From Thuidium tamariscinum (taxonomy: Eukaryota > Streptophyta > Bryopsida > Hypnales > Thuidiaceae): a stretch of DNA of 64,000 nucleotides. Of this stretch, positions 22,900 to 44,540 are shown piece after piece. The stretch is taken from assembly GCA_947034885.2 (NCBI GenBank), contig OX344752.2:19677386-19741385 (forward strand), given 5' to 3'. The notes beneath the pieces are model-generated. The model was not told the DNA's origin. It made no database searches and saw only the letters and a list, made by a program, of their open reading frames with translations. How positions within the stretch are numbered: the stretch's first letter is position 1; every line of letters starts with the position of its first letter. Made by a program: the position numbers and the translations under genes.

Positions 22900-23431
22900 C
22901 TCCCACGATGGCCAACCGTCCGATGCAGCCACTGGATTTAGCCCACGACGGAAGGGATATCGATTGTCACCTCGATTAGGTCCCAAACGGACCCAGGTGC
23001 CAGCGAAGGGAAGGAAATAATAATACGAGGTCCGCCTCGGCAACCGCCCCACTCAGCAGTCACATGCCCGAGACGAGCAATCCTAATACCCGGAACCGCA
23101 CAAGGATACCCGGATACTCCGGTCTCGGTGGAAGCTAACCGCGTAGAAGTTGGCAGAAACGAAGAGAGACCATGTGATTCAACTTGGACAACAACTGGGA
23201 AGGGAAGGCAACTTCCAGTATTGGAGCTTCCCTTGAGCTCCCCCGCCTTCGCTCCTCAGTAGTCTTGCCTGCGCCTCTGTTGTTGTTGTTGTCGTCGTCC
23301 TGTCGTCGAGGGTTTGAGCTCCCGCTGATTGTTGCGAGCCTGCGGCCGGAAGACTTTCATTCTCTCCTCGCGCGCGTGTGCCCTCGAAGTCCCGGTCGTC
23401 TCTTCCGGTCCCCGCGGGGTGTGCTGCCGCC
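22900..23431 (+). promoter_or_regulatory. Promoter and 5' leader of left ARF gene
   Basis: GC-rich compared with its surroundings. Blocks TAATACCCGGA (23084), GGTCTCGG (23121), AGCTAACCGCGT (23133), CAACTTGGACA (23180) and GAGCTCCCG (23316) recur in the same order in the reverse complement of 44262-44530, the promoter of the right ARF copy. The intervening sequence has diverged with gaps. The identical arm begins at 23361, within the leader. Confidence 0.65.
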
Positions 23432-25278
23432 ATGGGGCTCACCTTCACGAAGCTGTTCCAGAAGCTGTTCTCCAAGCGGGAGATGCGCATCCTTATGGTC
23501 GGTCTCGACGCAGCTGGTAAGACGACCATTTTGTACAAGCTCAAGCTCGGAGAGATCGTCACCACCATCCCCACCATCGGTACGTCATTATCCTTCTGCT
23601 TCAACTGTTCTGTGCTTTCGCACCCCCGTCTGCTGTGGCTGAGACGGCGTTTGGTTGGAGAGAGACGCTTCTGTGTCGCGTTTCCGACTCGGTTGTGTGG
23701 GGACGCGGCGCGCGGGTCGGTTTTTCGCAGACGCACTGCGTGCGTGTGTTGAAATTTTGTTCCTTCTTGGCTGCATTTCTTGGTCGTTTTTGTTTTGGCT
23801 TCTGGTGCTCTGCTTTTCGTGTTGGGGCGTGGCATCCATCCCGCGAATGAGGTTGGTTTGCGCCGATGGATCGGGCGATTTCAACTAGGTCACGTGTTGC
23901 TTCGTGCCATGCTTTGGAATTCTTTGCTGTGGTCAACGGTGCGCCTTGGATGTACGTATTGGGTCGGTTTCCAAGTAATGTGTTGGGAGATCCGATGCAC
24001 GGTCGTTCCGGAGGCTGTTTTTTCTCGTTTGGTGAGATCTGGTTGCATCTCCGGCGTGCACTCAGACCCAAGCGACCCGATGCCATGTTGAATCGGCCGA
24101 GGTCGTTTCTTCTGAGGGGGGAACTGTGGAGCGCGGCGGTCGGTGGCGTGAGGGAATGAGTCGAATTGTTTGTGCTCAGCGCCGGCGTCCCGTGGACGTT
24201 TGGGCGTAAGGCGCGTCCTCGCGACGCTGCTTGCCCTGGCGCTTGATGTCGGAGGTCCTGAAATTGGTTGGGAGCCTCTGGAGTGACCGTTTCCGGTTTC
24301 TTGAGCCCTGACGTGGTGCGATTGGTCGTGCAGGTTTCAATGTGGAGACTGTGGAATACAAGAACATTAGTTTCACCGTGTGGGATGTCGGAGGTCAGGA
24401 CAAGGTGAGTGTCTTAGGTCCTCTCTTCGCATGTTTCCTCCGTCCGGGAGTGCGACTTCGCTGCCGGTAATGTGTGGCAGCATGGTTCGTCGGGACAATT
24501 TTCCTTCCGTCTTTTTGAGACGCCCCCATTCGGCGTGCATTGTTGGGAGTGAATCCTCGAAGGTGATCTCGTTCTGACTTGATTTCTGCGTGTTTCAGAT
24601 TCGTCCGTTGTGGAGGCATTATTTCCAGAACACTCAGGGCCTGATCTTCGTGGTGGATAGTAACGATAGGGACCGTGTCGTGGAAGCCCGAGATGAGCTG
24701 CATCGGATGCTGAACGAGGTACTCCCTGCATTCCTTTGGTTGGATGATTGCATTCCGATGACGTTGCTAGGGAACATTGTGACGAATTTGGTTCCGTTGT
24801 TGTTGCCCTGTAGGACGAGCTTCGGGACGCCGTGCTCCTTGTTTTCGCGAACAAGCAAGATCTTCCGAATGCCATGAATGCCGCGGAGATCACTGACAAG
24901 CTTGGTCTGCACTCCCTTCGACAACGCCACTGGTAATCCCCTTCGACATTTTTGCGTTTTCTTGTTTGTGTTCGGCTCGGATTTTCTCTTTCGTGGTTTT
25001 CGAAGTTGGTTGGTCTGGTCCACTCACGGTTTCTGTTTCGGATCCTGCAGGTACATTCAGAGTACTTGCGCCACTTCTGGAGAGGGTTTGTACGAAGGTC
25101 TTGACTGGCTGTCCAGCAACATCGCAAACAAGGTAGGGTCTGCTTGAACCTTTTTGGACTGGATCGGTTCCCGGACTGTGGCAACGTGCATCTTTCCTGT
25201 ATGTAGGGCGATTTGGTTGTTATCACTGCTGATTTGGACCCTGCTGATACTTGGGAGTGTGGATATTTGCAGGCTTAG
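23432..25278 (+). CDS. ARF1: ADP-ribosylation factor 1-type small GTPase (left copy)
   Basis: Six exons: 23432-23579, 24334-24404, 24599-24718, 24814-24932, 25051-25132 and 25273-25278, all with GT..AG introns. Together they give 546 nt and 181 residues, the usual ARF length. The protein regulates COPI/clathrin coat assembly on Golgi and endosomal membranes. Visible features are Gly2 for myristoylation (MGLTFTKLF), P-loop GLDAAGKT (24-31), switch regions around [15 protein letters not shown] and [13 protein letters not shown], base-recognition NKQD (126-129), CATSGEGL, and C-terminus SSNIANKA. The last exon codes only Ala and stop. Without it exon 5 would read into the intron as VGSA. It converges with an identical copy at 42302-44148. 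Confidence 0.95.
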
Positions 25279-42301: not shown

Positions 42302-44148
42302 CTAAGCCTGCAAATATCCACACTCCCAAGTATCAGCAGGGTCCAAATCAGCAGTGATAACAACCAAATCGCCCTACATACAGGAAAGATGCACGTTGCC
42401 ACAGTCCGGGAACCGATCCAGTCCAAAAAGGTTCAAGCAGACCCTACCTTGTTTGCGATGTTGCTGGACAGCCAGTCAAGACCTTCGTACAAACCCTCTC
42501 CAGAAGTGGCGCAAGTACTCTGAATGTACCTGCAGGATCCGAAACAGAAACCGTGAGTGGACCAGACCAACCAACTTCGAAAACCACGAAAGAGAAAATC
42601 CGAGCCGAACACAAACAAGAAAACGCAAAAATGTCGAAGGGGATTACCAGTGGCGTTGTCGAAGGGAGTGCAGACCAAGCTTGTCAGTGATCTCCGCGGC
42701 ATTCATGGCATTCGGAAGATCTTGCTTGTTCGCGAAAACAAGGAGCACGGCGTCCCGAAGCTCGTCCTACAGGGCAACAACAACGGAACCAAATTCGTCA
42801 CAATGTTCCCTAGCAACGTCATCGGAATGCAATCATCCAACCAAAGGAATGCAGGGAGTACCTCGTTCAGCATCCGATGCAGCTCATCTCGGGCTTCCAC
42901 GACACGGTCCCTATCGTTACTATCCACCACGAAGATCAGGCCCTGAGTGTTCTGGAAATAATGCCTCCACAACGGACGAATCTGAAACACGCAGAAATCA
43001 AGTCAGAACGAGATCACCTTCGAGGATTCACTCCCAACAATGCACGCCGAATGGGGGCGTCTCAAAAAGACGGAAGGAAAATTGTCCCGACGAACCATGC
43101 TGCCACACATTACCGGCAGCGAAGTCGCACTCCCGGACGGAGGAAACATGCGAAGAGAGGACCTAAGACACTCACCTTGTCCTGACCTCCGACATCCCAC
43201 ACGGTGAAACTAATGTTCTTGTATTCCACAGTCTCCACATTGAAACCTGCACGACCAATCGCACCACGTCAGGGCTCAAGAAACCGGAAACGGTCACTCC
43301 AGAGGCTCCCAACCAATTTCAGGACCTCCGACATCAAGCGCCAGGGCAAGCAGCGTCGCGAGGACGCGCCTTACGCCCAAACGTCCACGGGACGCCGGCG
43401 CTGAGCACAAACAATTCGACTCATTCCCTCACGCCACCGACCGCCGCGCTCCACAGTTCCCCCCTCAGAAGAAACGACCTCGGCCGATTCAACATGGCAT
43501 CGGGTCGCTTGGGTCTGAGTGCACGCCGGAGATGCAACCAGATCTCACCAAACGAGAAAAAACAGCCTCCGGAACGACCGTGCATCGGATCTCCCAACAC
43601 ATTACTTGGAAACCGACCCAATACGTACATCCAAGGCGCACCGTTGACCACAGCAAAGAATTCCAAAGCATGGCACGAAGCAACACGTGACCTAGTTGAA
43701 ATCGCCCGATCCATCGGCGCAAACCAACCTCATTCGCGGGATGGATGCCACGCCCCAACACGAAAAGCAGAGCACCAGAAGCCAAAACAAAAACGACCAA
43801 GAAATGCAGCCAAGAAGGAACAAAATTTCAACACACGCACGCAGTGCGTCTGCGAAAAACCGACCCGCGCGCCGCGTCCCCACACAACCGAGTCGGAAAC
43901 GCGACACAGAAGCGTCTCTCTCCAACCAAACGCCGTCTCAGCCACAGCAGACGGGGGTGCGAAAGCACAGAACAGTTGAAGCAGAAGGATAATGACGTAC
44001 CGATGGTGGGGATGGTGGTGACGATCTCTCCGAGCTTGAGCTTGTACAAAATGGTCGTCTTACCAGCTGCGTCGAGACCGACCATAAGGATGCGCATCTC
44101 CCGCTTGGAGAACAGCTTCTGGAACAGCTTCGTGAAGGTGAGCCCCAT
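42302..44148 (-). CDS. ARF1: ADP-ribosylation factor 1-type small GTPase (right copy)
   Basis: Exons read on the minus strand are 44148-44001, 43246-43176, 42981-42862, 42766-42648, 42529-42448 and 42307-42302. The 181-residue product is identical to the left copy, including P-loop, [12 protein letters not shown] and C-terminus NKA. Introns are also identical in all parts I compared. The gene points towards the left copy, so their 3' ends face each other across about 17 kb. Its promoter differs from that of the left copy from 71 bases upstream of the ATG, so the two may be expressed differently while making the same protein. Confidence 0.95.
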
Positions 44149-44540
44149 GGCGGCAGCACACCCCGCGGGGACCGGAAGAGACGACCGGGACTTCGAGGGC
44201 ACACGCGCGCGAGGAGAGAGAAAGAGTGCGCGGTAAACAGGAAGAATGAAACCCTTCCTCACGGGAGCTCTAACTTTCGATGGCCACAACAGACGACAAC
44301 GACGACGAATTACTCACAACACAGGCGCAGCAGTCCTCACCGCGGAGAAGAAGCTTTCGAAGCGCAGAGCCAAAGCAAACTGAAGCTTGAACAGCAGCAA
44401 CACCTTAGAAGTCGTCCCGCTGCTGTCCAAGTTGCATCAACGCACTCTCAATTTCTGCCCACTCGACGCGGTTAGCTGGCCGAGACCGTGGTGCGCGGGC
44501 GTCGTGCTCCGGATCCGGGTCCGGGTATTATGGTTTGGGA
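44149..44540 (-). promoter_or_regulatory. Promoter and 5' leader of right ARF gene
   Basis: The first 71 bases (to 44219) match the left copy. Beyond this the sequence is different but alignable: CGGGAGCTC (44262-44270), TGTCCAAGTTG (44424), ACGCGGTTAGCT (44467), CCGAGACC (44480) and TCCGGGTATTA (about 44520-44530) are inverted partners of blocks in 23084-23324, in the same order. Confidence 0.65.

Follow-up and report, generated by a model that had tools for sequence, protein, structure and literature searches.

An Inverted ARF Gene Pair with Near-Identical Bodies and Diverged Promoters in Thuidium tamariscinum: A Probable Case of One-Sided Gene Conversion

Organization of the ARF Locus

The window, i.e., the whole stretch of 64,000 nucleotides analysed here, contains two genes for an ADP-ribosylation factor (ARF) arranged tail to tail, with copy A on the + strand and copy B on the - strand (Table 1). 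The ARF protein of the arms possessed a full-length Arf domain (Pfam Arf, E-value 7.4e-82, residues 5–177 of the 180 supplied). The best match among solved structures was ADP-ribosylation factor 1 (3aq4, 386.6 bits), which we take to be an Arabidopsis protein. A previous sequence-only reading of this DNA had noticed that the two gene bodies are virtually identical, and the arm-to-arm alignment agreed with it: the inverted pair extended over 5,810 aligned positions with one mismatch and no gap. The sole mismatch was an A at position 28984 in copy A and a G at position 38596 in copy B. The outer edges, at positions 23361 and 44219, were located 71 bp upstream of the ATG, and the inner edges, at positions 29170 and 38410, approximately 3.9 kb past the stop codon. 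The introns and the 3.9-kb 3′ flank showed the same identity between the arms as the exons.

Table 1. Location of the features described in this work (positions within the window unless a contig is given).
Feature	Position	Strand	Remarks
Window	C4:19677386-19741385		Genome of 363 Mb in 19 contigs
Left arm, copy A	23361..29170	+	ARF 5′UTR, gene and 3′ flank; putative recipient tract
Right arm, copy B	38410..44219	-	Near-identical core; putative donor
Spacer between the arms	29171..38409		9,239 bp
ARF gene A, coding span	23432..25278	+	181 aa plus stop; splicing predicted from AG/GT borders
ARF gene A, exons	23432-23579, 24334-24404, 24599-24718, 24814-24932, 25051-25132, 25273-25278	+	
ARF gene B, coding span	42302..44148	-	Same six exons, mirrored; core identity with copy A
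Promoter A block homologous to promoter B	23088..23200	+	Score 63, shuffle maxima 29-36
Counterpart block in promoter B	44415..44520	-	
28-bp conserved element, promoter A	22961..22988	+	One mismatch to its counterpart in the C1 ARF promoter
Left portion of repeat X in arm A, cut at the inner edge	29038..29170	+	17 X matches, 0 past 29170
Repeat X in copy B, unbroken across the inner edge (38410/38409)	38243..38542	-	Edge spanned by 12 of the 23 matches outside the window
Repeat Y adjoining the A inner edge	29167..29628	+	Upstream end truncated

Purifying selection might be thought to have held the bodies identical while the promoters drifted, and the ARF protein is strongly constrained, as the paralogue encoded on contig C1 differed from the window ARF at none of 180 residues. 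At the nucleotide level, however, the C1 gene differed at 62 of the 540 coding bases (dS 0.82), with 34 of the 80 four-fold sites changed, and it was matched by blastn mainly over the exons and the 3′ end. Such selection is an extremely improbable cause of the resemblance, and purifying selection alone is ruled out by the equal identity of the introns and of the 3′ flank.

A further ARF copy on contig C3 (C3:46278964-46282485) was 85% identical to the C1 gene in two long blocks, introns included. This broken copy looks like a pseudogene, since no match to exon 1 was obtained by blastn and exon 2 contains an in-frame stop. Comparison of the window with the surroundings of the C1 ARF gene (90 kb) and of the C3 fragment (70 kb) revealed no shared gene order; ARF aside, the matches looked like dispersed repeats. 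A tblastn search with the ARF protein (E-value up to 1) found no relic of an older ARF body in the spacer or in the outer flanks.

Contig C1 also carries an ARF-like inverted pair (C1:34588300-34590000 and C1:34633471-34635171), with 91.4% identity over 1,487 bp, copies approximately 45 kb apart and 37% identity to ARF. Elsewhere in the window, an open frame at 3459-4832 was transposase-like (Pfam DDE_Tnp_4, 4.5e-31), and another one at 8061-9011 matched WBS_methylT (6e-22) and other methyltransferase entries. Self-complementary, foldback-like segments were present at 19620-19857 (90.8%), 822-1681 (74.1%) and 56726-56886 (90.1%). The segment 57242-57437 was a dense self-complementary short repeat with many overlapping self matches.

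Homology and Divergence of the Two Promoters

Beyond the outer edges the two promoters were homologous and diverged, as the sequence-only reading had suggested. Their local alignment scored 61–63 against shuffle maxima of 29–36. This score was reached by none of 200 dinucleotide shuffles at each of four lengths and by none of 300 in a second run, which contradicts the counter-case considered in that reading, promoters aligning no better than shuffled sequence. In a control of 226 other 700-bp comparisons within the window, the best score was 33 for promoter A and 32 for promoter B. Each of five short words that had been pointed out as common to the promoters occurred once in each 561-bp promoter stretch, and their order was conserved. 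The best block consisted of 82 matches, 24 mismatches and 7 gap columns, corresponding to a divergence of about 23% (24 of 106 aligned positions, p = 0.226, JC 0.27). In the edge-proximal part (160/195 bp), the global score was 17 with a shuffle maximum of -3 (0/200 shuffles), and the best local score of 37 was reached by 1 of 200 shuffles. Farther upstream the signal faded: beyond about -300 bp, the score was reached by 11/200 (local) and 18/200 (global) shuffles, and beyond -900 by 128/200. Homology past about -300 bp thus appears not convincing. Beyond the homologous part each promoter had a dispersed repeat of its own, at 22625-22785 on the A side and at about 44800-45000 on the B side, both as judged among the best 40 candidates.

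The difference between the core and the promoter block was very large, with 1 of 5,810 and 24 of 106 mismatched positions, respectively (Fisher p about 2e-42). The sequence-only reading had proposed a recent overwriting of the core, and this proposal is supported because old, homologous promoters lie beside a core with one change in 5,810 positions. Relative to the promoters, the core would have been overwritten recently and an older ARF body at the left position replaced. At assumed substitution rates of 5e-9 to 1e-8 per site per year, the age of the core would be 9–17 thousand years, with an upper bound of 48–96 thousand years, and the promoters would be much older. Ages calculated from the gene bodies would mislead for this pair, in which a young core is associated with much older promoters. 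The promoter homology also rules out a simple, recent inverted duplication into a target that had no older homology.

Promoter A possesses a 28-bp element that had two occurrences in a genome-wide search allowing up to 2 mismatches, one in promoter A itself and one in the C1 ARF promoter, and that was otherwise absent from the window. The comparison of promoter A with the C1 ARF promoter gave a score of 51 (shuffle maximum 38, 300 shuffles), and that of promoter B a score of 24 (shuffle maximum 29), i.e., nothing above the shuffles. Because the element is common only to promoter A and the C1 ARF promoter, the left promoter would have been an ARF promoter independently of B.

The same element bears on a different scenario, in which template switching of the MMBIR/FoSTeS type put the inverted B body behind a fragment of an ARF promoter, no older left gene being overwritten. 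The lack of an ARF relic near the left copy (tblastn, E-value up to 1) is in agreement with it, as is a possible microhomology at the inner edge described below. Against it, the outer edge is placed exactly where the homologous promoter meets the 5′UTR, and the conservation of the C1-type element in promoter A is what would be anticipated if the left gene had once been complete. In other respects the two scenarios would lead to the same end product, and we regard template switching as quite improbable.

Repeats X and Y at the Inner Edges

The inner flanks of the two arms, compared over 300, 500, 800 and 1500 bp, showed no homology, as previously noticed: the scores were reached by 102, 167, 191 and 62 of 200 shuffles, respectively. 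The polarity of the inner edge was read from two dispersed repeats, X and Y. The A-edge query (28850-29500) gave 23 matches, 2 in the window itself, 3 to Y, 17 to X and 1 elsewhere. The three Y matches began at the edge and the 17 X matches ended at or before it. With the B-edge query (38215-38730), 25 matches were obtained, 2 of them in the window; among the 23 others, 12 spanned the edge, 7 ended before it, 3 were located at or to the right of it and 1 was elsewhere. Ten of the 17 places matched by X in the A-edge query were among the 12 spanning the B edge, and the other seven failed to cross the edge in B as well. A further B query, restricted to the best 40 of 2,347 candidates and crowded by another repeat, recovered three X places, all of them spanning the edge. 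In the edge-spanning matches the identity of X was 72–77%.

Three X copies were fetched, and the 200 bp past the edge were scored against B and A with simple letter shuffles as the reference. They resembled B (scores of 58, 98 and 55; shuffle maxima 32, 33 and 35) and not A (18, 22 and 21; shuffle maxima 26, 27 and 31). The remainder of X was not found in the rest of the spacer. On the Y side, two fetched copies were alike upstream of the A-edge point (score 102, shuffle maximum 30 in 500 shuffles) and unlike A (scores of 13 and 15). They had in common approximately 100 bp of additional upstream sequence that is missing from A. The tetranucleotide TGTC at the edge was common to A, B and the C1 copy of Y, and incomplete in the C4 copy of Y; one of the two Y copies aligned only from 4 bp after the edge. 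This 4-bp segment at the X/Y join is a possible microhomology.

Two Y copies on contig C1 (C1:7759200-7760000 and C1:7730859-7731659) were inverted, approximately 28 kb apart and identical at 801 of 801 bases. The arms of this pair are short, since mirrored 150-bp probes failed to match both 5 kb outward and 5 kb inward (agreement at 40 and 48 of the 150 positions). A transposon boundary of CACTA-like appearance was also considered as the cause of the inner edge and was rejected, as X does not end there; a search of the window for the CACTA-like edge motif with up to 3 mismatches found only the two arm copies.

The inner edge of A looks like a repair junction and that of B looks native, because repeat X runs through the edge in B but is interrupted at the edge in A, where Y is cut as well. 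The sequence-only reading had left two possibilities for the inner edge, and for the same reason the one in which the whole 3′ flank was replaced is a better fit than a conversion running to the end of the original duplication. An error of assembly, the B arm having been placed a second time behind promoter A, could account for the extreme identity. The arms nevertheless differ at one base, both edges of A join unique flanks, and the inner edge cuts two repeats inside their length. We consider such an error very improbable.

A Model of One-Sided Gene Conversion

We propose that the left ARF gene suffered a break, that B served as the template for its repair and that the copy was then closed by end joining, and we regard this one-sided gene conversion as the probable origin of the pair. 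In this model, the starting point would be two tail-to-tail ARF genes derived from an old duplication, each with its own promoter. A recent break would have occurred in or beside the left gene, the right gene serving as the repair template after strand invasion through homology in the 5′UTR/promoter or in the gene. The tract then synthesized on B would begin about 71 bp before the start codon, include the whole gene and extend about 3.9 kb beyond the stop codon. Joining of the new end to the far side of the break, inside repeat Y, would have involved no long homology and was probably achieved by microhomology end joining. The left gene would thus have become a hybrid, with its own old promoter and the body and 3′ flank of B.

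The two edges of the tract would play different roles in this model. The outer edge sits within the homologous promoter/5′UTR, as expected of the homologous junction of a one-sided repair, and gives no polarity. The inner junction at A is non-homologous, with unrelated flanks and both X and Y cut, and it would have arisen in the same event as the outer one. Together, a homologous outer edge and a joined inner edge would be the signature of one-sided repair. The continuity of X points to a transfer from B to A and is not proof of it, as an old deletion in A would give the same picture: if X was once present in both copies and A had long since undergone an X/Y deletion, the present pattern would also result from conversion up to that heterology, whichever its direction.

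That possibility corresponds to an alternative in which the duplication was old and longer and conversion took place inside it. Both arms would have possessed the 3′ flank with X, A would have lost part of X and of Y, and homogenization, once or repeatedly and in either direction, would have run from the 5′UTR to the X/Y heterology. Conversion tracts can end at heterologies, which fits this scheme, and X, an old repeat as judged from its identity in the spanning matches, could predate the duplication. The left half of X was also somewhat nearer to its family than the right half (0.815, 0.863 and 0.833 versus 0.770, 0.765 and 0.776 for the three fetched copies); this could indicate a chimera or reflect uneven constraint. 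On the other hand, the 5′ flanks contain different repeats, and their detectable homology is lost within approximately 300 bp of the edge; it would be unexpected that a 3.9-kb AT-rich 3′ flank stayed alignable for as long. Two independent events at exactly one base would also be required. We find this alternative unlikely.

If one-sided gene conversion is correct, both ends of a conversion tract, the homologous outer one and the non-homologous inner one with its repeat-based polarity, would be legible in a natural case. The outcome is a pair of identical ARF proteins under different promoters, so that duplicates can stay identical in product yet keep separate control regions. A broader proposal, still tentative and in our opinion rather doubtful, is that one-sided repair naturally re-paired an ARF promoter of the older type, bearing the element in common with the C1 ARF gene, with the body of the neighbouring gene. 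As near-identical inverted pairs recur in this genome, the Y-bearing pair on C1 being an example, repair from a local inverted template may regularly renew genes here.

Comparison with Known Systems

A literature search on tandem genes in mosses returned no paper. The nearest evolutionary parallel is HMA4 of Arabidopsis halleri, where ectopic gene conversion among three tandem copies was described and population data show its recurrence (PMC3749932). As in the ARF pair, the paralogous bodies are homogenized by ectopic conversion and the promoters behave as separate lineages. Unlike HMA4, the present case concerns one inverted pair in one genome; its tract includes a long portion of the 3′ flank and ends at an inner junction that is non-homologous. 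The palindromes of the human Y chromosome similarly have inverted arms kept nearly identical by conversion, but they are large and conversion is continuing, whereas one event is proposed for the ARF pair (PMC4233959). Conversion between old plant duplicates is known in rice, where the gene pairs come from ancient polyploidy and not from a local inverted arrangement as here (PMC8214281).

A mechanistic counterpart is the one-sided repair described in plants, in which one junction is formed by precise recombination and the other by end joining, and for which SDSA followed by NHEJ was proposed (PMC4762383, citing Puchta 1998). The likeness lies in one edge placed in homology and the other formed by a non-homologous join. 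In the case presented in that article, a nuclease-induced break was repaired with a transformed donor, whereas the donor at the ARF locus would be a natural chromosomal one, 9 kb away and inverted, as deduced from the sequence (PMC4762383). Read as one-sided gene conversion, the ARF pair is not new in kind and is a natural example of a known outcome of plant repair.
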